DNA from: Gymnogyps californianus | Taxonomy: Eukaryota; Chordata; Aves; Accipitriformes; Cathartidae | Assembly (NCBI RefSeq): GCF_018139145.2 | Contig: NC_059481.1 | Span: forward strand, 9,908,368-9,972,367 | Direction: 5' to 3' | DNA: 64,000 nt | Shown: one piece after another, positions 1 through 63,831 of the stretch | Layout of the letters: every line of letters begins with the position of its first letter | Numbering within the stretch: position 1 is the stretch's first letter | Translations under genes and position numbers: made by a program | The notes under the pieces: model-generated | What the model was told of the DNA's origin: nothing | Database searches by the model: none | Seen by the model: only the letters and a program-made list of their open reading frames with translations

Positions 1-2488
1 GAGATAAAGTTCTAAACCTTCCCATGAAAGATGATCCACTGTCTTCATACCCACTTAAACTTTGTGTACTTTTATTCCAGACTACTTCTAAAGCTGACTT
101 AGCACGTTGAAGAGTAGATCCAAATTTAGGAAAGCTGAAAGTCTTATCAGAAAGATCAATGCTTAATCGGCTATGCCACGATTTAGGGGCTGTTTCTTCC
201 GAGTCATCGCTTTGTAGTTCACTCTGACTTCGGTACATCATAGGCAATCTGTTTTGATTCTGATAAGAGGAGATAGAATTTGTTTCCTGATAATCATCAT
301 ATTGACCAGTCCACTGACTTTGTGATTCGCTATCAAGGCCTGGACATGATGGAGAAGTACCATCAAGGGTAAAATCGTAGCTTTCAGTATCATACTGGAG
401 GTCAGAACTTTGGCACTTTCCAAAATCTGTCTGTTGATCTGAAGGGCTGCTCATATCATACACAAAAACTTCCTGTGTGGATGAGTCTAGGCCCAAATCT
501 GCCCCTTGTTCCAACTGATTCCAGTCTTTCCATGGGGAAAGATCGTCGTGTAAAGAAAGCTGAGAATCACTATAGTGACTTCTGTCTCCAGATGCACATA
601 TTATTCCATTGCTTACTCCACTGTCAACAGTTTCTGTGTTCTCTACTTCATTTTGCTCTGGATACCGCTGCATATCTTGGACAAAAGTCTGTTCCTGGCA
701 ACTGCCATACCAGTTTGTAGAATCATCTTGCCTTCGCTGCCAAAGTTCTCTATCAGAGGAAGACAATAGTGAACTGCCATTTGTTCTGCTAAAATACTGA
801 TTTTCTGAAAAATCCTCAGAGTAAGACTGACACAATTTTGAGAAATCTGACTCTGAACGGCTAAGTTTTGGTGTTGCAAAGTCATTCTGTAAATGCCATA
901 GAGGAGTCATGTCTGAATAATAGGTCTTCGATTGTTTTTCCATGTTGTCAAATTCTGGTGACTGATTACCGTAATCTCTTCTGTTTGAAAAGGTGCTATT
1001 ATCAGCAGTTCTATTAAGGTCTTTAGTACTTGGGGACTCGATACTCCCCTTTGTAGTGCTTGTTTTTATTTGAAGTGCTGATTTAGATATCTTTGCATAA
1101 CTGTTCTTATTTATATCTGATTCCAAGTCTTTATCACTGTCAGGTGACTCCCAGTCATGCATTTTAGGTTTTGTCTCCACCGTTAAAAGCTTCATATCCA
1201 TACTCTCATATGTCTGAGAGGAAGGTAGTCCTCTTTCTTTTTTGTCTTTTATGTCATGGGAAAATATATCTGTAGAAATTCCTATGCCAGTTCCCTTAAG
1301 TTTATAAGACTTTTTTAAAATCAAATCTCTCTGTTGTGATGACTCAAAGTAAACAAGAATGGGTCTTGGCTTTGCATTTGGACAGTCTCTTTGTTGCCCC
1401 AGTCTTTGGGCAAACTCAATTTTAATAGTGCTTTGTGCCTCTGAGAACCCCATTTTATCTATTAACATTTTGTAAACTATGCTTTCAGTTTTTTCAAGCC
1501 TCTCTTCAGGCACATTTAGAAACCTAAGACTTGCTTTGTTTCCTGGATGGCCTATTTGCTTAATGTAGTCGTGTATGTCCCGAGTTTCTCTTCTGGACTG
1601 TACAAATCCAGTTCGCAATTGTTCAATTTCATTTTGTACAACTTCTACACTACTAGAAATTTCATCAATTGATTGTTTCAGAGCATTAACATGCCCTCTT
1701 AATTCAGAGAGTTCTGTTTCTATTTGACTTATTCCCTGAAGCTCTTTAAAGATCATTTCCATAACATCATGGGTTTGACTAATACAACCTGTTGAACTAA
1801 AGCCAGGTTCAAGAGTATTTGATTTCTGGTGACGGCCAGTTCTGTCTAGAGATTTACTTCTTAAGCCCCATGTTTTCTTCCATGTACTTAGTTCTGAGTC
1901 TGACGAGACACATTCTTGGCTCTTCTTCCATTTCCTTAGTTTTCGTAAAGCTCCCAGCTTCAGTGTGTGTAAAGTGCGTTCTCCATCCGAACTTCCATCA
2001 GACGGTGCAAGGCTGCTTGAGCTTTTTCTGTTGCGTCTCACAGGCATTGTGTGTGATAAGTATTCGTTTTTCTTGCTATTACTTTTTACTTCACTTAACG
2101 ACTCAGAATATGAACTACCATTTGAAGACAGATCTTGAACTATATCTTCATTATTATTGTTTGTTACAAAAATATGCTTTTGCAGTCCATTGGCAATAGC
2201 AACTCTGTAACTGAATGTTGGAGAAAGCGAAAATTCTCTATTACTTTCCTCTTCTTCAGTTGATAAGTTGCGAGCAGATGGACACTTGGCAATCTTTTTA
2301 ACAGTGCTTTTTAAAGTATTCGAAAATTTTGGATTCTTTGTTTGTCCAATCTGAGTTAAGTCTTGTTCCTTTTTGCTCTGACAACTCTCTTTCCTTTTTG
2401 TACTATTTCCCGATTTCTTTGTAAACATTCCTTTGCAAATCTTATATATGTAGGATGAGATCAGGCTCTTTAAGAGGGCAGAAACCAT
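1..2488 (-). CDS. UNC13C: UNC13C (Munc13-3) giant first coding exon, partial (runs off left edge)
   Basis: Munc13-3 is a presynaptic vesicle-priming factor; its C1, C2B, MUN and C2C domains lie beyond the window. From the ATG at 2488-2486 the frame is open for 829 complete codons plus one base. The protein begins [20 protein letters not shown] and contains [23 protein letters not shown], the stretch ending LSEL (about residues 240-263), [20 protein letters not shown] and [21 protein letters not shown] recognise these as the UNC13C N-terminus, very close to the human protein. Residues 1-240 and 421-829 are low-complexity, Ser/Asp-rich and probably disordered; 241-312 is a coiled coil; 319-420 is a folded segment listed separately. 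An in-frame TAA at 2506-2504 fixes the start. The start context has G at +4 but T at -3, so it is only moderate. No frameshift or stop is seen. The last base (position 1) is the first base of codon 830. Confidence 0.97.
1229..1768 (-). other. Coiled coil plus LINE-1 ORF1-like RRM segment within UNC13C giant exon
   Basis: Residues about 241-312 form a heptad-like coiled coil ([20 protein letters not shown] onward). It leads into residues 319-420: LRFLNVPEE, then an amphipathic helix ([14 protein letters not shown]), [21 protein letters not shown], a second helix ([15 protein letters not shown]), [14 protein letters not shown] and a basic tail. This order (coiled coil; beta-strand ending xGLPE-like; helix; IExAHRxG-like strand; RPRPIxVxF; helix ending KLKGTxI; acidic-Phe-Ser; Arg/Lys-rich end) is that of LINE-1 type ORF1 proteins (Transposase_22 family) and many related retroelement proteins. 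The reading is intact. The similarity is by eye to the family pattern; the origin by domestication is inference. Confidence 0.6.
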
Positions 2489-26645: not shown

Positions 26646-26712
26646 CTTCTGAATAGCCCTGGCCCATCTTGCTTTTGCAAAATTACTTCCATCAGCTTGA
26701 TCTTTATTTCTC
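26646..26712 (-). CDS. UNC13C: C2A-type UNC13C transcript, exon 7: calmodulin-binding motif
   Basis: A 67-nt exon with a strong acceptor (CCCCCTTTCTCCAG ending at 26713) and a strong donor (GAAG then GTAAGA at 26645). Phase 2 entry matches the end of exon 6; the join gives AG+G (Arg), then RNKDQADGSNFAKARWARAI and QK, leaving in phase 0. FAKARWARAIQK aligns with the Munc13 calmodulin-binding site (RAKANWLRAFNK in Munc13-1, QARAHWIRAVTK in ubMunc13-2), with the anchor Trp and the Trp-x3-hydrophobic spacing kept. In the family this site mediates Ca2+/calmodulin control of priming. The motif lies only about 60 residues after the C2A domain, against several hundred in Munc13-1, so linker exons may be missing from my model or lost in the gene. 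Confidence 0.82.
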
Positions 26713-40004: not shown

Positions 40005-40932
40005 TGTCATGGTTTAGGCCCAGCCGGCAACAAAGCACCATGTGGCCGCTCGCTCACTCCTCTCCCCCCGTGGGATGGGGAGGGGAAAATATAACGAAAG
40101 GCTTAGGAGTCAAGACAAGGACAGGGAGGGATCACTCACCAATTACGGTCACAGGCAAAACAGACTCGGCCTGGGGAAAAAGAAATCAATTTAATTTGTT
40201 ACCAATCAAATCAGAGTAGGATAATGAGAAATAGAACCATTTCTTAAAAATACACCTTCCCCCCACCCCTCTCTTCTTCCTGGGCTCAGCTTTGCTCCCG
40301 AACCTCTACCTCCTCCCCCCTCAGCGGCACAGGGGCATGGGAATGGGGGTTGCGGTCAATTTATCACATGCTGTTTCTGCTGCTCCTTCCTCCTCGGGGG
40401 GGAGAACTCCTCACACTCTTCTCCTGCTCCAGCGTGGGGTCCCTCCAACACGAATCCTTTCCACGGGGTGCAGTCCTCCACAAACTGCTCCAGCGTGGGC
40501 TTTCCCATGGAGTCAAGGCCTTCTCCGAGCCCAGCCACCTGCTCCAGCGTGGGGTCCTCCAGGGGCTGCAGGGGAATCTCTGCTCCGCCATTAACCTTCC
40601 ATCGGCTGCAGGGGGACAGCCTGCTGTCTCACCACGGGCTGCAGGGGAATCTCTGCTCGGGCGCACCTCCTCCCTCTCCTTCTTCACTGACCTCGGTGTT
40701 TGCATAGCTGTGTCTCTCACATCCCACTCCTCTCCACTGCAGTTTTTCCAGCAGTCTTTTTCCCCTTCTTAAATATGCTATCACAGAGGCGCTACCACCA
40801 TCATTGATGGGCTCGGCCTTGGCCAGAGGCGGGTCCGACTTGGAGCCGGGGAAGCTTCTAGCAGCTTCTCACAGGAGCCACCCCTGTAGCCCCTTCCCCG
40901 CTACCAAAACCCCGCCACAGAAACCCAGCGCA
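40005..40932 (-). mobile_element. Solo LTR of an avian endogenous retrovirus, minus orientation
   Basis: A 928-bp GC-rich block begins TGTCATGGTTTAGGCCCAGC and ends in AAACCCAGCGCA. Flanking pentamers TATGG (40000-40004) and CATGG (40933-40937) form an imperfect target-site duplication. I recognise the sequence type from ERV LTRs common in Neoaves, especially songbirds. Read on the minus strand it has a TATA-like CATATTTAAG near 40770 and, about 570 bases further on, AACAAATTAAA near 40190 where related LTRs carry AATAAA, so the classical poly(A) hexamer looks mutated although ATTAAA remains. No internal retroviral genes flank it, so it is a solo LTR. The 118-codon minus frame inside is not a recognised protein. 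The family assignment is from memory. Confidence 0.8.
40425..40660. repeat. Tandem subrepeats inside the LTR
   Basis: TGCTCCAGCGTGGG recurs at 40425, 40486 and 40540 (spacing 61 and 54 bases). GGCTGCAGGGG recurs at 40564, 40604 and 40638. This is typical of enhancer-type or expandable repeats in the 5' half of such LTRs. Confidence 0.85.
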
Positions 40933-49000: not shown

Positions 49001-49909
49001 CACAGGGAAAGCAGTGATCAGCTGACAGTGGGAGGAGTACTGCTTCTTTCAATGTCCTCCATTCATCCCCGAACCTATCCAATTAACTAAAAACACAGAA
49101 AACTAATCAAGCCAAAAAGCAGGGCTTCTTGTTTCTCAGTTCAACACAGGGTTCAAGACAGCCTATTTCAACAAAGTACAGTTCCAGAAGAGATGGAAAA
49201 GAGGAGATGAGAGCAGTCCCACTGTTACAACAGGGGCCTGGAGATGAAGGAGTAGGAAGGGTTAGAGACAAGGATGGATGGAAAGACTGACTTTCAGTTC
49301 TGGTGAGATGTTCCTTTTATTTGAAAGAAACTTGCTTTACCATGTATCTGCCATTAAAGAACACAGAAAAGCTACTAAATACCTGCGTTATCTTTAATTA
49401 TTCTTTAAAACATCACCTTAAATGAAGGCAAATCAACCAACACGTTTGCACTTCTGAAGCCATCTGTATATACATAACAACCTGCTGCAAAAGATTCTAG
49501 AACGTTATTTACCCCTTCTGCATCACTAATAGATTATATTCTTGTTTTGTAGGAATTTGCCAAAGATATTTCTGGTTACCTTTAATATCTACATTTTTTG
49601 TAGGCTAAAATCCTCTTTTCTGACCACCAATGATTCATTGAGAAGTCACACATATTTGCAAACTGGTTTGGCATGATATAGTGTTCTTCGTGTTTTTTCT
49701 TTCAATAGAATATGAAGATTTATCATGCTCTGTCCCACCATAATAATGGAAACATATGCCTTATGGTTTTATATATTTATAAAACTTCCAGTCACATTCT
49801 TGCTTAAAATAATTGTATATCTATCACAATGTCATTCAGAAATTAAAAAGAAAAATTAAAAAAATCAATAAACGTTATGATACTTGTCTGATATGACAAA
49901 TTAAAATAC
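46029..49909. other. Intron-like region, no gene seen
   Basis: AT-rich sequence. A donor-like site at 48740 and another near 49383 on the minus strand lack a supported acceptor with an open compatible frame. Confidence 0.6.
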
Positions 49910-50045
49910 CTTTGTTTGCTTTCTTGTATGCTGAGATCACTTTCCATGGATGACAGACTATCATATGTATCTTGATGTGAATGTCTTGTACCTTGGAGAG
50001 GTCTCCTTCTGTGCCAGCCTCTGCAATCTAAATCTTTGTGGGCAT
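49910..50045 (-). CDS. UNC13C: C2A-type UNC13C transcript, exon 6: end of C2A and linker
   Basis: A 136-nt exon. The acceptor is TTTTTCATTCTCTACAG ending at 50046; the donor is AAAG then GTATTT at 49909. Only one frame is open; it enters in phase 1 (completing GAT, Asp, with exon 5) and leaves in phase 2. It encodes AHKDLDCRGWHRRRPLQGTR, then a hydrophilic HSHQDTYDSLSSMESDLS and IQESKQ. Trp142 aligns within one residue of the Trp in Munc13-1's EEEARYW, just after the C2A core. The rest corresponds to the poorly conserved linker, so this exon rests on splice sites, phase and length more than on identity. Confidence 0.85.
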
Positions 50046-53000
50046 CTGTAGAGAATGAAAAAGCTGCTAGAAATCTTTCAGTCCATTTTCCAGAAGGAAC
50101 TTCTAAAAGAGGAAGTACATGCTAAATTAATGAAATTAATTCACTAAATTCATAGTAATAGGGAATTAATCAAGTCAATTACAAAACATTATTATAATAA
50201 AATCACTTTTTACAACAACAGCAGAAACAGAGTTCCAAAATCACCTTCTGATTGTTGCACTGAAAACTTCAAAAGGCCAGTTACCTTTTTGTTACACAAA
50301 CTTGGAAACAGTTCATTTTACAATTGAAAAATGAGCTATTGCTGGATTGGGAAGAAAACAGATCTTTTAATTTTCCAGTCCAACTTCAGTTCTTAACTGG
50401 CCATATATTTCTTATGTGTCCATGCACAACATTCCAAGATGTGGGGGATTTTTGTTTTGAGTTTTTTGTTTGTTTTGGTTTTTTGTTGGTTTTTTTTGTG
50501 TTTTAAGTAAGGAATCAGGTTTTACTTTAATTTCACATGTTATTGGCCTAGAACAGACCTTTTTTCAAGTTCTTGTCTCTTTGGAGAAATCTGGCGAGTC
50601 TCATCTGCAATTGGAGGTACAAACTGATTTCCTGCAGAACATTTTACTCTATAAATCATCCTATTAGCTTTACTGAGAGGAAAGAGTTCATGATCTGGCC
50701 CTAAGTGTGAGGAAGTATACTATATATTCAGTATAACTGAATGTTAAGGAACATGATATGTCTCTAATGCTGGATTTAAGAAAAAATAAGTGATGTCCTT
50801 TAAATTTTCTTCTGTCTTCTCTTACAAGAATGACCTAATAAATTTGAAGCAAAATTATTGTATTTCATAACAACACTTGATTATCCTTTAAAAAACTAGA
50901 CTTTTAGAAACATTAAAACTGTTTGCAATTCAGCTGTAGTATTTATCTACAGTCTGTATTTTATTATTGTGAATTTGCTCGCACAATTGTAAATATATGA
51001 GATCCTCATTTTACTTAGCAGCCTTTTAATGGAGCTCAGTCTAGATGGCAACAGTGAAACAACAACTTTGTTGCTACCACAACTAACATTAGATGATACT
51101 TCTAGAAAAAAGCACTCATGAATGAACTAATGATGTTTAAACACTTCCGTGTTACTACATGCAGTGCTTCAAGTCCAAATGAAGCCATATTGTTAAAGCA
51201 GCGTGGAAGGCTCTTATATTTCTACCAAGTATCTGGCATTCTCAAATGGACATCTTTCAGGAATTGTGAAAAATAAATTACATTGGAAAGGTACAAGACT
51301 GCAGTTGTCATAACAAAGAGGCTGTACCGATTCCAATAGTCAAAGACAGATTCTCAGCTGGTCACAGCTGAGCTGAGAGTCATTCAACAGAATAAGCAAT
51401 CAAAATGTAATGCTTTAGTCAAACTCCAGGTAGAGGGTAAAGATAAACGTGGCTTTCTCAATACCCGAGACGTAATGCTTTTGAATACTGCCCTCTGCAC
51501 AGAAAACTATAGTGTAAGAGTGACCTCTGCAGGATATCCACAGTGCTCCATCATTACAGTCCCAGGGACTGTCTTTAAAACACTCTCTCAAATATGTTTA
51601 TTTGGAAACAGAATACAGGCATCAACCTACAAACTGACACTCCCTCCAAGTAGCAGCCTGAGATCAGTAACAACCTGAATTTACAGCTTGTAAACACACA
51701 GTTAGAGTTTCTACAACAGACTTGCACCAGGTTTCTAGATATCAAAACTATGTAAGGACACACTTAAAACATTCTGCTGATTCAAAGGAGGTTTCAAGAA
51801 GAATTTATGGCACATGGAATAAATACAATTTGTACCAATTTTTCTCCTTTTATAATGGGTATTCCACTGTTACTGCACAAACTGTTGTCCTTTTCTGTCA
51901 TCTTCTTTATAAACCGCTCCTTCTTTGTACTATTATTCCCTTTTTATACTTAAGGACTCAGTCCACTCGACATATGTACACTTTCCATCATGCTTAAAGG
52001 AAATAAAATTATCTCATAAGTGAGAATAATCTAGATAGAGGCACATGTGAATAGCAAGAAAAAAGTTCTCCTCTATGAATTTTTACTCAGACAACTGAAA
52101 ATTGCTTGTGGCTGCTGGGGAAAATATAGCAACCAAACAAAACAAACAAAAATCAGAATGTGATTAGGGCTTAGGTTATCTTTTAAAATGTTTTATTGGC
52201 TAAAAAGTACTAAATAAAGAGCAATTTTTGTAAAAAAAAAAGATGTAGGCCCTGTTGTGACGCTCAAGAATCCACAACAGTCCACAATTACTCTGTGAAA
52301 AGGTATACATTCTACCACATGTATTAACAGGAGTGTAGTCATGTAGTCTACATCCAGAAATATCAGAAATAACTAGTCTGCTCTAATCAGCATTAGCTAT
52401 ATTGCCAAGTTCAGTTTCAGACAACGCATTTGAAAAAGAACATTAAACAGCTGAAGAGCATATTTTTGGTATGACTTCTATTCCTCCCTTTCAAAAGGTA
52501 AATAATGTTTCTCATTCACATTTCTTCACATTTTTTACTTTTATTCTTGTATAAATTTTAGGATTAGTCTTTTTAGCCATAGTTCATTAGACTGTTTAAA
52601 GAGTAAAATATTAAGCTAATTTATCTTTGTGAACTTATTTGGCATATTGGACCATGTCATACAGATGGACTGATAATCTTGATAAAGTCAATCTGTTTGT
52701 ATTATATCTGGAAATAATGTGAGGTGATGCATTATTTGATGTTCGGTTTCCATTTCTACCTTCATACACACTGTTTTCATACACATATATGCAGTTTCCG
52801 TCGCCATACGCACTATTCATAAAGGCAGACAGCCTTTGCTAATAAGATAAAAAATGCTGTGAAGCCCTAGATTTTAGTAAAACTTACATTGTGCAAACAG
52901 CTGGTCAAAGCTGGTGTGATACACAGCCATAACACACAGGCTCTAGTAGACTGAGCCTTAAGGAAGTACTTCCTTCTTTAGCTCTACAATCCACATGTGG

Positions 53001-53215
53001 ATGAACATTAGCCAGTGAAATGGTTCATCCAGCTCCTTGTGGGAAGTGGCTCTCAGTGATTCTATTACTTACTAGTACCAATTATACAAAAGCTCCAGTG
53101 ATGAATAAGCATTTAAGATTCCATAAAAAAGTTACTATTTGCCACTGTATTTCAGGAACTTAAAGTTGAATAGAATGGTTGGAAAGCTGGAGCGAGACCT
53201 CAATCTGTAACTCAC
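50046..53215. other. Intron between C2A exons 5 and 6
   Basis: AT-rich sequence with T/G-rich runs near 50445-50500. A 61-codon minus frame (52820-52635) sits after an acceptor-like TTATTAG, but the phase needed from exon 5 meets a stop at once, so it is not joined to the transcript. Confidence 0.7.
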
Positions 53216-53339
53216 CAAATGGTAATGCAAAGTAGACATCCAGTAAGATCTCATGTGAAGTTGGTGTTTTTGTGCCTTGAATCTCACTCCCATTTTTTAT
53301 TACTTCAGAATGTAATGTCCACCAGGAACCGGGACCTTC
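53216..53339 (-). CDS. UNC13C: C2A-type UNC13C transcript, exon 5: C-terminal half of C2A
   Basis: A 124-nt exon. The acceptor is TTTTTTCCTAG ending at 53340; the donor is TTTG then GTGAGT at 53215. It enters in phase 0 and leaves in phase 1. It encodes [37 protein letters not shown] and ALPF (residues 91-131). This matches Munc13-1 and ubMunc13-2 residue for residue in order (EGPGEWLTL, EICGT, HRILLDTRFELP), including the EGPGxW turn and the final ILLD-x-xF strand of the C2 fold. Confidence 0.93.
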
Positions 53340-55059
53340 CTAGGAAAAAACGTTCTGAAAGTTACCTGGGTACGATTTATAGCATTATCCACTTTTTCCT
53401 GAATGAAGGTTCCCCTAAGTCAATAGGAGTTTCTTTATGACACCAATAGGCTTAGGATCTATTCTAAACTCTTCCAACTTTTGTTTATTTAAGTAGTAGT
53501 TAGGACTTCATCAAGTTTTCTCACAGGCACGAAGCTCGAAAGAATAAAATATTTGTTCTACAACATAGACAAATACACATTAAGATGGTCAGATAATTAA
53601 GATGCAAGAAATATGAACGTTGAAAAATACTCCTATGAACTGAGATTTTTCCAGTTCCCCTGTGAACTGGTGCCAAACAAGTACATTCTAGCACAACTGA
53701 AGCAATCAATGTAAGCTAATAACGAAGCCAAAAAAGAGCTTCTGAAGCAATGCTGCCTTATAGGTTATTTCTGAGTTATAAAGCCCAGAGCAGAGCTGCA
53801 GGGTTAAGATGAGCAGGATAAATAACTAGAAAAGTTCCACAGTGGTCTAATTATAAATGAAGGCTTAGAGGGTCTGAAGAAATTAAGAAACAATCTCTAC
53901 TCTTGCATCTTCGTTTGTTTAAAGTTTCAGTATGTACTGTTAAGCCACAACCTCTGTGTCAGCAAGCTGTAACTCAACAACAGCTAGAGTAGCAGAGAAA
54001 AACAACTTGCCTCGGGGCCTGAAACGGCACTTGGCAGCTGTGATAGAGCAACTTCTAATTTAAGCAGGATTTACTTTCTTTCCCTGCTTCCATTCTCTCA
54101 GTAGAATCATTGAAATGTCAGTTCAATGTATATATGAATATTTATTAGTTCCTATAAAGAAATGGCTATAGAGACTGATGGGAGATGCTGTAGGAAGAAT
54201 AAGTTTTCTGATTCTCTCTCCCTTACCTCATCATCAATTGCCTTTTTTATTTTTTTAGAAAATTTAAAGAAGGCAAACTTAATTTTATTTGCAAAGATTA
54301 AATTCATCTGCTCTAATTCAGAGTTACTTTTTAAAAAATAGACTCCATGGACTATGTGTAGGAAAGCATATTTATGAATGGGAGAATCGTGGAGTATCAG
54401 AATAAGGTACCTCTTTCTTCTTGTGATTTCAGATAATTTTGCAGCACTTGCAGATTGCTTCAGTATTTCCACACTCCCAGAAACCTTTTTTCTTTATTTT
54501 CTAGCCTACTGAGGGCAAGCATGCTCATTCTGGTGGCTAACTATGACTATGCTGGATACATGATAATTCTTTGATTGACCCATTTTCTCCACTCATCCTT
54601 CTCTATGTGCCCATTGTACCAGTAATTTCTTCCATAGTAACACAGGGCAAATTTCTGTTTTCCTCTGAGACAATGGCCAGTTCCCTTGAGAGACAGTATT
54701 TTGCCCATTTTAATAGAGACTTACGCAAGGTCACACAAAGAAGAGCCAGGCCAGGAACCTCAATCTGAAATTCCCTCACTCTAATCACATAAACCAAACT
54801 GTCCCTGCCTCCCTGATAATTTGTGAGTGCAGATGAACTCTAACCCACTTACTGAATTATACCTGACTCAGTATGTGGCTAACGCATATCAGTTGTCACT
54901 GAGAGTCACACGTGCATTATGCCTCAATATTACAGACTGAAACAAATGAGAGAAATATACATCGATCATAAATATCATTACAGTATTTGGGGAGGCTCAG
55001 AATGAGAAATTAATTGGATTTTACTCAGTGCTTTATATTTCCACAGAAAGTCAACTTAC
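53340..55059. other. Intron between C2A exons 4 and 5
   Basis: Holds the MIR-like relic at 54.7 kb. A 106-codon minus frame (54472-54152) has no recognisable domain and is taken as chance. Otherwise nothing was recognised. Confidence 0.7.
54699..54816 (+). mobile_element. Degenerate MIR-like (CORE-type) SINE relic
   Basis: TTTTGCCCATTTTAATAGAGAC, GCAAGGTCACACAAAGAAGAG, CCAGGAACCTCAATCTG and a final CTGCCTCCCTG follow the order of the 3' half of MIR elements (CCCATTTTACAGA, CAAGGTCACACAG, AGCCAGGATT-GAACC, CTGCCTCC). It is short and heavily diverged. Confidence 0.5.
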
Positions 55060-55177
55060 ATCTGTTGCATGTTCCACAGTTGCAAGCGGAATCCACAAAA
55101 CTCCTAAAATGCTATCCCAGAGCAAGCCTTTCTTCCACAGCTCTATAATGAAGCCCTTTCCATCAGCACAGATTTCA
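55060..55177 (-). CDS. UNC13C: C2A-type UNC13C transcript, exon 4: central strands of C2A
   Basis: A 118-nt exon. The acceptor is CATTGTTTTTAG ending at 55178; the donor is AGAT then GTAAGT at 55059. It enters in phase 2 (completing Phe51) and leaves in phase 0. It encodes EICADGKGFIIELWKKGLLW, DSILGVLWIPL and ATVEHATD (residues 52-90). The pattern [21 protein letters not shown] of Munc13-1 is matched position by position as IELWKKGLLWDSILGVLWIPL, with both Trp residues, the KGL turn, Gly and WIPL kept. No stop or frameshift is present. Confidence 0.96.
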
Positions 55178-58100
55178 CTAAAAACAATGAATACACAAAC
55201 CATTAAACTGAAAACACAGTCTCAACTGCTCAGTAACGTATCATAAGAACTTGAGTTAGTGACTTACAGCAGATACGGAGGTGTTTTGTTTTCAGTATAC
55301 TCATAAAACACAAGATAGCAGGCATGATACAAAGGTTAGACTGGACAAGCCAAGTCTCAAGTCTTATTGTTCAGGATTGCTCTTACAAACTGATGAGAAC
55401 AACTCTGCTGGAAATGTGGCACAGAAGTCCCAGTTGTCATTAGCTTTATTTTGCTACAAGACTTGGCCCTATTGCATATAACCCAAGAAGAAACCAGGAT
55501 CAGGAAATGCCTTTATTTCCGCTTCAGCTTCTTCTGAGCAGCTTCTGCATATGGAATTCCTCAGTTGCCTCCACAGGACAATGGTGTCCTCAGGACAGCC
55601 CTGAAGAACCTGCATTCTCAGGTTCCACTGTAGCTAACTTGTTAGGTGTAGGAGTAGTATGATATAGCTAGCTTTTTGTCAGGTGAGTTCTTTTAGGTGA
55701 AACTGGGATCCACAAAAATGATCAGTCTTTTGAACATAAAACTCAGAGGAACATTTTCAATGAAACAGTAAGAGCTGGCAATGTCAGCTATGATGGCACA
55801 CACTATCAATCAACATGGACCGTCAGCTAAGAATGATTTATAATGGCATGGGAAAAATTCCATCTTCCCTCAAAAAATCTAGAAGAAGGAAGTGCCAGAC
55901 CATTTCCTACAGGGAACTGAACCAGTTTCTTGTTCTCATTGTAAAGGAGACCAGGTATAAAAGACATTTGGAGCTTGTTCCCTTCATTAGAATTGAGAAG
56001 TTGCAGTACACAACAAAAATACAATGGGAAAACAGCTCTCAGTTTCAAAAGCTGCAGATCCAGGCTCTATTTTAGTTCTATTAATAGGATGCACACATTT
56101 TATTACTAGCTGGTTTTGACCAAAAAAATACCATACCACAACCTTATTTTGCAAGAATTTAAAATAAAATTTTGCCAGGCCATATGACTCACCCATGACA
56201 TTGAACTAAAATTAAGAGAGAAGTTACTTCCTCATGGAATGTCTGGCATTCCTTTATATATTGCTATAAGCAGTTACAGACCAGTTCTGTAAATATGAAC
56301 AATATAATAAAGTAGACATTGGTGTCTCTGCTGTGACTGATTGTATGTAATCTCCATTTGACTGAACTAATTTTAAGTACTAAAACTAATCTTCAACTGA
56401 TTTGTGTGGTGTACCACAGTGAATTAGCGTGTACTTAAAGTTACCAGGAAAAGGACAAGTGAAATCTGAGAAGGGCAAAGGGTGCCACCCCTGCGGCAGG
56501 TACTGAACTCATCACGTTGCTCTCAAAAAACATTATGTTGGCTGCCTTAATGTCTAATTTTCCGCTGTACTCATGCAGTTGAATAGATATAGTGAATTTT
56601 TGGTTTGTTCAGCTTCTCCCTTTTCAAATACGTAATGGAAGACAGACTGTAAATTCTTATCTTCTGGTATTTTTGGACCCCAACTTTAAAACTGTTGCAC
56701 TGGTAACTGAACAGTGAAACTGCATATTGAAAGCTTAAACAATACATAATTTTTAAAATGCAAGCTGGTAATATCTGTGTGTAACAGAACAGGTTTTTTA
56801 CAGGCAGAGATGGAGAGAGCGCCCTTAAGGAAATGAACTACAGTATGACTTTACAAAGTCTATAAAATGTATTTGTAAATGCCTATTTATAATGCCTTTT
56901 AAAAGTCTGCTGTGTTGTATAGTTGAGTAGGCAGTAGATGGAGCTATAGCAACTTCATAACATATTTGCTAGAAAAGTCGTTTAGTATTCTTTGGTAACA
57001 TTTAAATTGCAAACTAAGAAAATAATCCTAATAAATTGCTCACTCTCATTTACGTACAATATGATTAAAAGCAAAGCATTTATACAACAGAAAAGCAAAT
57101 GTATTAAATAATATTTTAACACATTCCTCAGGAAAATTTAGAGGATAAGTTACACACGCCCACTTTAAAATATTTTAATTGCTTCCTGCTCTAAAGGTAA
57201 CAGATAGGGCAAATGCTGAAATTTAATTGATCTACTTCCTGATATACCATTACATTGTCATCCAATCCACGCCCAATGTGTTATAGAACTATTACGTCTA
57301 GATCAGTAAAGTGCCAAAAAAATCATGTTAACACGGTATTATCATACAGCAATGATTCCTCTACACTGAAACATGACAATCTTTTCTACAAGTCAAAGCT
57401 GCAATATGAGAATGGTATTTAAAAAGGCTAGCTATTGATATTAATTTTCCTTAGCATTTTCAAAGACAGATACGATCCTCCTGTTTGGATAATTTAGGCT
57501 ATGGCTCTGAACAGTCTGCTAGAGAACCTTGATGACTGGGGAGTGGTGGAAGAATTAGCCTCAGATTAAGATTAGTTTTATATGGTCAGAAGTCAGAATT
57601 TTGAACGACTTCTTTGATATGTCACTACATCTAGCCATAAAATAGCATGTAAAGAAGGTATAGATGTTGGCTTAGCATAACAGGCCCTTGAGTCACTCAG
57701 TCTTCAGTTAAGCAAGCTAGTAGTCTGCTACAGTTGTCTAAGAAATCAGTTGCATGACATCAAAAAAAATTCCAAATTCAATTAATAACTTTAAGAAAAA
57801 TTTGTGATGAAGATGAAGCCCTTAAGTGAGATTAAAAGCACTGTGAAATAAAATTAATTTCTGTAAAATATCTGTGAAGAAAAAAACGGAGAAGATTTTA
57901 GAAATGCTGCTTTTAATACAGAATAAAATTAAATTTGGGGGGTTATTTCAATCACTTTCAGCATATGTAGAGCTTGTCAAAAGATATTTATAGGTTTTGA
58001 TAACCAGAAAGTATGGAAAAATTATTCAAAACAACTCATTCTTCTGATAAAATATTAAAATACTTGGATTAGAAAAAAACCCAAAATTGTAAAAAGGACA

Positions 58101-58907
58101 TTTTTCATAAACATAACTAAAGCCAATTAAATGTTTAATTCTGTAAAAATATTTCAACCAACTCTAGACCTCAGGAATAAAATCCATGTTTCCACAAAGA
58201 GGATCTGGTGACAGAGAAAGATTTGTGCAGGGAGAAAGGAGGGACCAAAAATAGTAGAGATTAACATCTCAGCATTTTATGAGGTTACATATTTATTGGA
58301 TTTAACTGCTTTGAAATTGACAGTTGAAAGCAGGTTTCCTCAGAATGTCAGTCAGTATATAAGTGTTTGGACCTTCCTGACCAGTGAGGTATATATAAGG
58401 CTCTAGAGAAAAGAGGAGAACAAAGACTGAATAACAAGATGGAGAGATGAGGGAAGCGGACAAAGATCTACAGACAGAAATGAGAAACAGTACGGGTCAA
58501 TAACAAAGAAACTACCTAAACTGGCAGTTAAGTAGATAAATGGATGTACAAAATATGAGTCATACAGAAAGTAAATTGCGTAAAATAAAAATCAAGTTGC
58601 ATAAGGATCAATTTGAGCTCTCTTTCTTCTCATTCCTGTATTCCTAAAACATTACATGAAATTAAAGATACTGGAGACAAATATTTTCTTCCCCTTGTTG
58701 ACTGCTGGCCTTGATCTGCAATGTGGCTTGCAAAATTAACTTTTGTTCTGTTCCCTAGAACTAGCCTGGCACCTTTTCTCTGAGCTGGATACTTTTTCTT
58801 TGCTTTTGCAGTCTGTACGTGGTGTTAGATGTTATTAATTGCTCTAAACAACCCAAATACAGCAAAGATGCAACAAAACCAATTGATAAGCATTCCCTGT
58901 TACTTAC
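55178..58907. other. Intron between C2A exons 3 and 4
   Basis: AT-rich sequence. Frames of 60-86 codons near 55.8-56.2 kb have no homology I recognise and no splice-site support. No repeats were identified. Confidence 0.7.
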
Positions 58908-59007
58908 AACATGAAGTCTTGTTCCCAGCAAGGTTCACTTCCCCTTCTGTCTATTGTAGTGCTTTTTAAATTTTGGACTTTTAAAACAACATAGGTTTTG
59001 AATGTAT
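58908..59007 (-). CDS. UNC13C: C2A-type UNC13C transcript, exon 3: first strands of C2A
   Basis: A 100-nt exon. The acceptor is TTATTTCTTTTTCAG ending at 59008; the donor is TGTT then GTAAGT at 58907. It enters in phase 1 (completing Asp18) and leaves in phase 2. It encodes [32 protein letters not shown] (residues 19-50). Munc13-1 has KFNTYVTLKVQNVKSTTI and RGSQPSWEQDFMF at the same positions. Lys32, the residue whose mutation in Munc13-1 disrupts C2A homodimerisation and RIM binding, is present. This exon alone identifies the domain as Munc13 C2A. Confidence 0.97.
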
Positions 59008-62000
59008 CTGAAAAAGAAATAACCAGCACGTTAAAACCCACTTAGTTTCCTCCTAGAAGGTGGAAACATTCAACCCCATGGTAGTAGGGCTTTCACTCTT
59101 ACTCCATACAAAACATTCAGAGGTGTGGTTCAAATATGTGGATTTGAACAAGGAAGCTCTTATTAATTCTAATGGGATTATGACAGGAAAATCTCTGCCC
59201 ATCACAGGTGAGAGAAAACATAATCCTAAGTGTGAGCAAGTATTTTAAGGATCAGCTTCCAGACATGGCTTCCCAGATTATTTATCAATCTCCCTGACAG
59301 ATCCTGCATGAAACCAGTACGCACTCCCTTTCTGCAAATTAGGATTTTCTTTGCCTTTCAATTGGTATGATAATATTGGTGACTGGCTAATGAGCTTTCA
59401 TGTCCAATTAAGGCAAGGCCACAGACTTGTAATGTAGTTCAGTCTTGTCTTTGTGTGTGAACCTAGTTCTGTCTACAGATGCAGCAGCAAAATTGGTTTC
59501 AGATGCAGTCCCAAATGAACTCATTTTCGTAAATGTCTTTGTAAATGCACAGTATGAGTATTCATAAAATTGGACCTAATCAGCAAAAAGAAGAAAATTT
59601 AAAAAATTTCCAAGTGCTTGAAAATATCACTGACAGAAAAAAGCAAAAGAACTAAGGGAAAGCTCTACTCTTTAAGGCCTCACAGAAGAATCTAAGGCAG
59701 CAAAGGGCATATTATATCATCTCAATGAATGTGGCTGTTCAGAAAAGATTCTCAGCTTGCATGCATGTAACACATCCTTCATTAGCCTCCAGCATCCTAC
59801 ATAAGAAGCAACATTGACATATGGTTAAAAAAAGACTTTTTTTTTTTTTTAAATAGAACTACTGCCAAAATATACATATGAGACATAGCCAAGAACAGAG
59901 GTCATTTTTGAGCTGTCTGTTTTACCACAGGTCAATCAACCAGTCTGAGTTGGAGGGAAGCTGTCACTGTCTACGATAGGCTATTGAATGGGTTGCATCA
60001 AATTACACTGCAGTTAAAAAGTGTGAAGGAGAAGAGTTAGCTCTGTACATGCTGTATGTAGATCTTATCGATTAGGACTGACGATAATGTTTGACAAAAG
60101 AACTAAAGGATGTTATGTAATGGGAACTATTTTTTTTCAATAAACAAAATGAACAGTGATCAATGTTATCTATTTATTTTCTATAATTCAGTGCACCAGT
60201 CTTCTCAAACATGTCTTTGTTCTTACACTGAAAAAACCTGACAGAGTCAATACAGATTGAGAAGTGTGGTGACTTATTTGTGAGAAATGGTGTCAACAAT
60301 GCGTGATTCACATACCATCCTATTGCTCATTCTGTGTAACTGAGGCAAACAAAACAAAATCTGCAAAATGTTTTGTAGTTGCACAATTTGTTTGTAGTTT
60401 GGAGACCTGCAAGTCAAGGTTTGAGAAATTTTCAAAAGAACTCTCCATTATATCACTTGGCTGAAGAATAGCAACCTACAATGTTTAACTCCAGCCATTT
60501 TGAGCACCACATCTATATCTATGTTTAAATAAAAAATACAACAAACAACCTCCCCCCAAATTAACACTTATATCCTTTAAATGAAGCCGTAACTGACAAG
60601 ATGGAGACTTTAAGATATATTTTTAGGGGTAGTCTGTTTCATTGTTCTATTATCTTCATATTCATCTCTATAATTTCTTCCCCATTTGAAAATTTCATGT
60701 TCCTATGTATCATGCCATGTGATCAAACCTAACCACCTTCTATCTTTCCCCAGCTCCTTTTCTAGCACAAAAACTGAAGAAATTTCAGACTGCCTGCATT
60801 ATCATTTTCTTGCCTGGAACCTTATCTTCTGCCTTTTAAAATAGCTGTTTCTCCAGTACTTCCTTGACCTCTTTGGCTCTTCTCCGGATCTAAATGTTAC
60901 CTTTCAGCACTTTACCACTAATCACCTTCCTCAGATTTCATGAGTTATGTCAAGTAAGAAAATGTAGAAACTCTGTCTTCTAAATAACTGCAAATATGTA
61001 ACCTCCTTGAAGAATAACAGTGTTAAGACTGAATATTATTACAATACCCTGGTAGTGGAAAGGAGCTGTAAATTTTGCTTAATGACAAGAAGCTTTGTTT
61101 CCACAAAGCCATTATTGCAGCTCCCAGCCCTTTGGCTGTCAAAAATGGAGGGACCTAGTGCAACTTTTTGTGAAAAGAAAAAGGGAGGCTATCCCCTTGC
61201 TTATATCTTCAGCTTTCAACCCAAAACAGAGCACAGCAACTTCATGGCAGCTTACACAAAGTAGTAAATTAACCACAGGAGAATCCCAGATTTTTGAGAA
61301 ACAAGCAGGTATCTCAATACTGCTCTCAGTCATACCTACATAATTTTTCTGCCCAAGAAAACAGAGCCAATTATCAGAGAATACACCATTCGAACTTTAT
61401 TGCCATTACTTATGGCATTAGCAAGTCTTCAACAGCATTCAAAGGAAAATTAAAATTACTTAACTTTTATCAAATAATTATTTTTGATAATCATCTTTTG
61501 TAAATTATCACCTCTTTTGAGTACCAGCAAAATACAGGATTTGCTGAAGCTTGCAGAACATTTTTCTGATTGCATTAGAATTTCATTGAAAGATGATTCT
61601 TCAGTCTATACTTCATACGCATACTTCACAGCCTACTGTGAAGAATGACTACTTCACAGCGAGTTAGAAGAATCATGTTCCCAGAAAGCAGCTTAACCTG
61701 TGCTAGTTCATGTTACCTTTCTTTAGTCCAGATAACTTTAAACGATTTGCAGAGCTTGCTTAAATGTATTAGCCAGACACCTACTGGCAAATTTTGCTGC
61801 ATCGATTAGGTTGTATACCAACTTCTCCTGAGAACTAGTAATTACAAAGATCTTGAAGGCTATAATTTATAGTCTACCTATGTGTGAGAAATCTCTGGCT
61901 GAGTTTGGACTTTCTTTTCCACTCTGGCTAAACTTTGGTCCTGGAGGCAGACTTACAGAGTTCTGGGCAGCTTGATTTTGCTCATATTTATTGCCTAGGG

Positions 62001-62456
62001 CCTATACCTGATCTCTATAACTGTCCATCAGTACCGCCCATCTGTATTTCCTCACTGGGAAAATTCAGACACCATCTCCTCCCTGCCCTGGTGAAGCTAA
62101 AATCCTGCACTCTCTTTATATGAAAAATAGTTTCTCTTGACTGATGACCTATTTAGGTCATCAAATTATGTAAAAATTCTTTCTAGTGGAAATATCTTTT
62201 AAATACCACTAGTTTGAGAGACAATAACTATTAATAACTGAAAATTACAGATTGTCTGAGGCCACAATCTTGTTTGTTAATTTGATCTTTAAAATATACG
62301 TTTATTTTTTAACTCTTTCCTCATTCATTTGTGCTGAACTGTTGATGAAATGCATGCAAGTAGTCCCAGGCTTAAATGATTCTTTAGTGTGATACGCACA
62401 TGCATGCCCAAGAAATAAAAGTGTAAAGCATAAATTAAAAGGGAAATCAGACTTAC
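59008..62456. other. Intron between C2A exons 2 and 3
   Basis: AT-rich sequence with a T-run near 59840. No exon, RNA gene or transposon was recognised; short frames at 61.0-61.5 kb on both strands lack support. Confidence 0.7.
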
Positions 62457-62486
62457 CAGCTGCTTTATGCAACCTTCCTTTTTTCA
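62457..62486 (-). CDS. UNC13C: C2A-type UNC13C transcript, exon 2 (30 nt)
   Basis: A 30-nt exon. The acceptor is a T-run then AATAG ending at 62487; the donor is GCTG then GTAAGT at 62456. It enters and leaves in phase 1. It encodes VKKGRLHKAA (residues 8-17), with Val8 split across the junction with exon 1, and aligns with VKKAKFDGAQ of Munc13-1. It is too short to call alone, but its splice sites, phase and position between exons 1 and 3 make it convincing. Confidence 0.92.
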
Positions 62487-63809
62487 CTATTAAAAAAAAA
62501 AAATTATTATCAGATAATACCTTAACAATACTTGCCAATAAATTTCATGAAAAAAAAAAATCTAAGGGATTTCTATGGTATAAAAAACCTCAATCAAAAA
62601 TGAAAACAAGTACTCTTAAAAAAAACGTAAGCACCATTGCGATAAGCTAATATGATTACTCGGAATTCTTTGGGAAAGAAAACATGTGGAAAGTCTTTGC
62701 AGCTTACAGAAACCTAGCAAATACATGGATACAACACAAAGGGCAGAATGGAGACCAGGTGACCAGGAAGGGTAGTATACTATCCATCACCTCACAATGC
62801 TAGTTCAAAATTCTTCTCAATAATAGTCACAGAAGGCTCACAGACTTCATATAATCTAAAGTAGCTTCTATCATCTTACAAAGAATCCTTTATTAAATTT
62901 TATTTACTCTGTCTATCAGAAAAGACATATTGCAATAAACACCTTACCAATTAAAGAGTGAACATTTCAAATCCTGACTTTGTTCAACAGGCTTAAGTTC
63001 CATGCTATGGTATCACTTGATTAATGAAAAATGCCCTGAAGCTAGTAGGATTGTGATTCAGATAGTCATCATAATTATGAAAAATCTAACCTGGTCATCA
63101 TTTTGTATCAAGTGTCTGACTACTAAAGTTCATTGAATTTAGACTTTTAAACAACGTAATTAAATATTTCTAAATTTTCCTGCCATATCAATGCACGTAA
63201 GACAGTTCAGTTCAATTTCAATGAAACATCACTGCAGTCCTACAAAAATTAAACCTGCTGTAAGAATATACTTATGTATATCATATATTTCACTACTATA
63301 CTTAGGACCTAGTAATTGCAATAAAAAGCTAAATATTGAATCCACAACTTTACACTGAAAAGGTTCCCAAAATCTTGTCATTGTTTCCCAATTCCCTTCC
63401 CACTTGCCTAACTTCACCTACCTTCCTTTTCCTTGCTTTCATCTATCCCTTAACATCCCTAAGCATTCTATAGAATTGCATCATATTTGCAGAATGTCTA
63501 TCTGACAACCTGAATAATTCCATCATGTCTCACTGAGAAAGCTTTCACTTTCAACCCAAATGGGAAGAGACCAAACTGTCGCTGAGCCGCAAGCAGAGTC
63601 CAAACACTGCAGCAGTTCAACTGCACTGCAAGAGTGCAGAATTTACACACTGCACTTACTTGTCTTCCCTTGAAGGCAGTACTGCAAGAAATATTCTCAT
63701 CTACTTAAATGAGCAATGCACATCTGCAGTCTATGAAGTTGCTTTTTATAGCCACCTACTAAATAATTGTCACATTGGTGAAGGAGCTTGCATGATAAGA
63801 AAAACTTAC
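62487..63809. other. Intron between C2A exons 1 and 2
   Basis: AT-rich sequence without recognisable repeats or other exons. Confidence 0.7.
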
Positions 63810-63831
63810 CTTTTACAGAGAGAAGTTCCAT
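63810..63831 (-). CDS. UNC13C: C2A-type UNC13C transcript, exon 1 coding part (start codon)
   Basis: ATG at 63831-63829 with G at -3 and G at +4 is a strong start context. The frame encodes MELLSVK plus the first base of Val8, ending at a consensus donor (AAAG then GTAAGT at 63809). Munc13-1 and ubMunc13-2 begin MSLLCV(G/R) and are also cut after seven codons plus one base before the VKK motif. An in-frame TAA at 63882-63880 closes the frame upstream, so this is the true N-terminus. The transcript is a different first exon from the giant-exon form 61 kb downstream. Confidence 0.93.

Follow-up and report, generated by a model that had tools for sequence, protein, structure and literature searches.

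In a 64,000-nucleotide stretch of the condor Gymnogyps californianus genome (contig NC_059481.1; hereafter the window), seven exons upstream of the classical first coding exon of UNC13C, the gene for Munc13-3, encode a second N-terminus that carries a Munc13 C2A domain. With a probability of roughly 0.65, we read this as a Munc13-3 isoform of the ub type that has been conserved, with a RIM switch lost or altered in birds. UNC13C of the condor would then have two alternative N-termini, as UNC13B has in ubMunc13-2 and bMunc13-2. The seven exons read from the upstream start would supply a C2A domain followed by a short linker and a helix that resembles a calmodulin site, and exon 7 would be spliced past the large Munc13-3 exon to the exons for the common C1, C2B, MUN and C2C part, giving a protein of about 1,400 residues. 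The C2A domain would still be able to dimerise through Lys32, and its binding to the RIM zinc finger would be lost or altered (Glu128 to Ala or Val, and replacement of the helix that follows). Such an isoform would stand closer to the homodimer-favouring Munc13-1 E128K/E137K mutant than to the RIM-recruited form, and Ca/calmodulin would still act through the exon 7 helix.

Upstream exons encode a Munc13 C2A domain

Coordinates are positions within the window, and all UNC13C exons lie on the minus strand (Table 1). A sequence-only reading of the window had described six exons joined by consensus splice sites from a well-placed ATG into an open frame of 176 residues, and on each of these points it was right. 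GT is present at 6/6 donors and AG at 5/5 acceptors of exons 1–6, exons 1–5 end in phases 1,1,2,0,1 and exon 6 in phase 2, and the spliced translation runs for 176 residues without a stop. The ATG in exon 1 has G at both −3 and +4, and 17 codons before it lies a stop in the same frame. The conserved residues that had been named are all found in the translation: Lys32, and the motifs that start at Trp45 (WEQDFMF), 65 (WKKGLLWD), 79 (WIPL) and 91 (EGPG). A search of the spliced protein against Munc13 C2A and Pfam C2, proposed in the same reading, returned PDB 2cjs (UNC-13 homolog A, C2A) as the best match (E=2.6e-46, phmmer) and 2cjt as the second (E=9.4e-44), these two being the sole PDB sequences up to E=0.001; Pfam C2 also matched (E=1e-8). 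Chance exons are rejected by these matches, and exons 1–6 encode a true Munc13 C2A domain. It aligns over its full length with the Munc13-1 domain of 2cjs and 2cjt, matches human Munc13-1 (a sequence supplied without accession) at 78 of 149 aligned positions and retains Lys32, but differs from it in the window by Ala at residue 128, by a replaced next helix and by one inserted residue.

The six exons stood as described; the N-terminus they form is incomplete, because a seventh coding exon (26712–26646) had been overlooked. The codon begun at the end of exon 6 is finished by exon 7, which brings the spliced N-terminus to 199 residues. Its acceptor tract is made of pyrimidines at 17/17 positions and its donor is strong. 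The exon end scored 35, compared with 16 for the best alternative among 23 candidate exons of the right phase (18 distinct ends, positions 49909–2489), and it beat 500/500 shuffles of the template, the best of which scored 34. The encoded helix has Trp and Ile at positions 1 and 5 of a 1-5-8 calmodulin pattern. Tandem acceptors at 26712 and 26709 (CAGGAG) precede the exon, and the protein may vary by one residue there.

Bird proteins join the C2A exons to UNC13C

Protein rows were drawn from three lists (195, 60 and 237 candidates) limited by shared words and length. The 199-residue query matched 84 proteins among 195 candidates, and 40 of the 84 are bird UNC13C rows (P0001–P0039 and P0084), a count that includes rows whose N-terminus is shortened or chimeric. 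Five bird rows (P0001–P0005) match all 199 residues at 84–92% identity, which answers the question, left open by the sequence-only reading, of whether bird gene models already hold these exons. Four of them are NCBI UNC13C models; the five comprise Rissa tridactyla X3 (92%), Corvus moneduloides X2, Ara ararauna, a row named 'lgn' and Prinia subflava X2, the last representing a cluster of 132 members. All five omit the large exon: WARAIQK is joined directly to ARIVSG of the common exon (AQLVSA in Prinia), and the C2A exons continue into the shared UNC13C exons, which lie outside the window. Domain searches of P0001, P0004 and the shark row P0087 each matched three C2, one C1 and one MUN domain. 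The 'lgn' row (P0004) has 1403 residues, or 4212 coding bases including the stop, on a contig of 5,241 bases; because exons 1–7 span 37 kb in the window, this contig is too short to hold the introns, and we infer that the row is a spliced transcript.

Several other bird models are irregular in this region. In P0016, P0022, P0026, P0032 and P0084 the C2A exons are extended into the intron and spliced to pieces of the large exon, and fowl and goose models are without exons 1–2 and 6–7, apart from P0022, in which the greater part of exon 2 is present.

The classical first coding exon was located with a human UNC13C query supplied without accession, which gave a tblastn match at 2488–2 on the minus strand (73% over 841 columns from the first Met). 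It is stop-free within the window and lies 24 kb downstream of exon 7 on the same strand, and for this reason the locus is UNC13C. A transcript that joins the C2A exons to the whole large exon was considered and rejected: the three AG sites that precede the ATG of the large exon and would be in frame from exon 7 all run into a stop first (3/3). This test covered sites upstream of that ATG; some automatic models splice to sites within the large exon itself.

The C2A N-terminus is shared with cartilaginous fish

An emu C2A query returned 39 bird rows and a single shark row, labelled UNC13B-like, at 66%. Searching in turn with the shark row gave 79 proteins among 237 candidates, including 11 cartilaginous-fish rows of the UNC13C kind, ten of them with C2A; six of the 11 are labelled B-like, four C or C-like, and one has no name. 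In a C-terminal tree made by a quick method from 35 rows (including eight cartilaginous-fish rows, eight bird rows and the human UNC13C sequence supplied without accession, with P0076 dropped), a single group with support 100 unites human UNC13C with the birds and the cartilaginous fish, and UNC13A, UNC13B and lamprey rows fall outside it. The C2A tree (40 rows) likewise groups birds with cartilaginous fish (99/95), and does so at 100/99 when the outgroups and lamprey row P0076 are removed. Of the ten cartilaginous-fish rows with C2A, eight also carry the helix of exon 7 and the junction that follows it, as does the row that is without C2A; neither was matched in the two rows from Callorhinchus.

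A gain of C2A in birds alone is rejected by these results, since both the C2A and the junction recur in cartilaginous-fish UNC13C, which the trees place with that of birds. Because C2A, helix and junction are all shared with cartilaginous-fish UNC13C, the comparison indicates that the C2A N-terminus is ancestral to jawed-vertebrate UNC13C, with a two-N-terminus layout as in UNC13B. A C2A-bearing UNC13C of a mammal, non-avian reptile, amphibian or bony fish was not among the three word- and length-limited protein lists, which hold no mammalian UNC13A or UNC13B among their named rows either; no mammalian genome was searched.

These data also bear on whether the exons belong to a distinct copy, derived from UNC13A or UNC13B, that was inserted close to UNC13C; the sequence-only reading had named a separate locus of such descent as an outcome that would overturn its assignment to UNC13C. 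Such an origin would fit the literature, in which C2A is described for UNC13A and UNC13B only (PMC5436228 and PMC8762327, in the portions available). It is contradicted by approximately unbiased (AU) tests, in which holding birds with tetrapod UNC13B (p-AU 0.002) or with UNC13A (p-AU 0.016) was rejected, by the position of the exons upstream on the same strand and their splicing to UNC13C common exons in P0001–P0005, and by the same arrangement in cartilaginous-fish UNC13C. We regard it as very improbable, and the assignment to UNC13C stands, on the classical exon and the C2A tree alike.

Two further points concern annotation. The cartilaginous-fish models P0085, P0086, P0088 and P0090–P0092, labelled 'unc-13 homolog B-like', resemble UNC13C, and the five of them in the C-terminal tree (P0085, P0086, P0088, P0090 and P0091) all fall in the UNC13C group. 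Petromyzon marinus P0076, also labelled 'unc-13 homolog B-like', adjoins the UNC13C C2A group (95/94) and may be a lamprey UNC13C.

Constraint on the domain in birds

Constraint was read as residue conservation in the proteins of the window and of the five bird rows that hold the whole N-terminus. Invariant residues number 104/131 in C2A, 20/53 in the linker and 13/15 in the helix, and C2A differs from the linker at p=1.9e-7 (Fisher). We infer from this pattern that C2A has been kept by selection in birds. The upstream exons could instead be a fading relic, still included in a small share of transcripts in some birds but giving a protein of little use, while constraint relaxes. Several observations would suit a relic: the C2A tree has a stem branch of 0.52 for birds and 0.07 for cartilaginous fish, a faster evolution of C2A in birds that partial relaxation would also produce; duck–goose and pheasant–quail models are without exons 1–2 and 6–7; and the three lists yielded C2A-bearing UNC13C from neither mammals nor the other groups named above. 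The contrast between C2A and linker among birds argues the other way, as does the open C2A kept in emu, owl, parrot, gull and passerine rows, and we consider a relic quite unlikely.

Homodimer and RIM-contact residues

In Munc13-1, K32E disrupts the C2A homodimer and spares RIM binding, and E128K combined with E137K makes RIM zinc-finger binding no longer measurable and favours homodimers, with docked vesicles down 40% and priming impaired (PMC5436228, from the part of the text available). Lys32 is retained in the window and in 38/40 bird rows, the remaining two of which lack the column. The sequence-only reading had cited Lys32 towards a RIM-binding form of Munc13-3; it is a homodimer residue, and its replacement by Glu spares RIM binding. 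Residue 128 is Ala in the window, Ala in 36/40 and Val in 4/40 bird rows, Glu in 10/11 cartilaginous-fish rows (the eleventh is without the domain), and Glu in 98/99 and Asp in 1/99 of the other rows. The segment that follows the bird C2A, into which the E137 position falls, has one inserted residue, and Gly and Pro occur in what is a helix in Munc13-1; its mean helix propensity, a crude measure, is below 1 in 3/3 bird sequences and above 1 in 6/6 others.

With Glu128 absent in 40/40 bird rows and the helix replaced, a RIM-binding form is not borne out as it had been put. Judged from these residues, the bird C2A probably dimerises through Lys32 and is unlikely to bind RIM in the manner of Munc13-1. 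The alternative is that the changes at Glu128 and in the helix are made good by other residues, so that birds have a RIM-recruited Munc13-3. The well-conserved fold, with its identity to human Munc13-1 given above, speaks for this, as do Asp138 of the window near the E137 position (Asn in Prinia) and the C2A of worm UNC-13L, which is 50% identical to its mouse counterpart and binds RIM (PMC6389284, available in part). We find it unlikely, given a residue 128 that is Glu in 0/40 bird rows against 10/10 cartilaginous-fish rows with the domain and Glu or Asp in 99/99 others, and given the low helix propensity in birds.

Other features of the window

An Rfam scan of the window gave no match. Long overlapping open frames occupy both strands over about 500 bases at 40292–40772, perhaps a repeat.

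Table 1. UNC13C coding exons in the window, in order of transcription.
Feature	Positions	Strand	Remarks
Exon 1	63810..63831	minus	ATG and residues 1–7 (MELLSVK)
Exon 2 of the C2A N-terminus	62457..62486	minus	
Exon 3, C2A	58908..59007	minus	carries Lys32 and WEQDFMF
Exon 4, C2A	55060..55177	minus	carries WKKGLLWD and WIPL
Exon 5, C2A	53216..53339	minus	carries EGPGSW and the Glu128-to-Ala position (YFALP)
Exon 6, linker in place of the Munc13-1 post-C2A helix	49910..50045	minus	
Exon 7, calmodulin-site-like helix NFAKARWARAIQK	26646..26712	minus	ends in phase 0; same exon in P0001–P0005
Classical UNC13C first coding exon (MVSALLKSL...), alternative N-terminus	1..2488	minus	continues past the window edge

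Discussion

The arrangement that we favour, a C2A-bearing Munc13-3 isoform with an altered RIM switch, has a close counterpart in UNC13B. There one gene yields either a C2A N-terminus with a Trp-anchored calmodulin site (ubMunc13-2) or a large-exon N-terminus (bMunc13-2), each followed by the common C1-C2B-MUN-C2C part (PMC7017353, in the portion available). The condor gene would follow the same plan, with a putative calmodulin site in exon 7; the condor case differs in that the gene is UNC13C and in the loss of Glu128 in birds. Mustelus P0087 ('unc-13 homolog C isoform X3') is an ortholog with C2A, a calmodulin helix (SRSRWKRVIEK) and the same junction, but it retains Glu128 and the acidic helix, has Arg32 instead of Lys32, and has a longer linker between C2A and the helix (some 250 residues, compared with about 53 here). 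Mammalian Munc13-3 comes from the same gene, and its large-exon N-terminus is also present in the window, but it is stated to lack C2A in the available part of PMC5436228; the available part of PMC8762327 names C2A only for Munc13-1 and ubMunc13-2. A literature search found no report of C2A in UNC13C by title or abstract opening. The two-N-terminus layout is known from UNC13B, and what would be new to specialists is C2A in bird and cartilaginous-fish UNC13C, together with the bird change at the RIM contact.

Besides the long bird stem branch and Asp138, the following observations count against this interpretation. On the transcript side, a retrocopy would look like the 'lgn' row, and 35 of the 40 bird rows are without the full N-terminus; since those rows are partial, mutual exclusion of the two N-termini rests on the five full rows and the stops in the window. 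Many automatic bird models are without exons 1–2 and 6–7 or read the C2A exons into the intron or pieces of the large exon. Exon 7 was first seen as a weak tblastn match (E=0.98, 26714–26622) to the calmodulin-site region of Munc13-1, its helix has Ala at position 8 of the 1-5-8 pattern, and the calmodulin segment alone found no match in a PDB search up to E=10. With regard to the contact residues, residue 32 is Arg in 6/11 cartilaginous-fish rows and is therefore not strictly fixed in UNC13C, and the literature evidence at residue 128 comes from a double charge reversal, not from alanine (PMC5436228, as available).

The literature sorts Munc13 isoforms by C2A and counts Munc13-3 among those without it. 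In the bird isoform the domain is conserved and the RIM-binding glutamate is replaced in 40/40 bird rows, which makes it a natural test of the RIM switch. More tentatively, and as a possibility that we hold with less than even confidence, birds may keep a natural RIM-uncoupled Munc13 whose C2A dimerises with itself or with other Munc13s and is unresponsive to RIM, while sharks keep the RIM-switchable ancestral form. If true, a RIM-uncoupled isoform would set a constitutively restrained or RIM-independent mode of release in birds.

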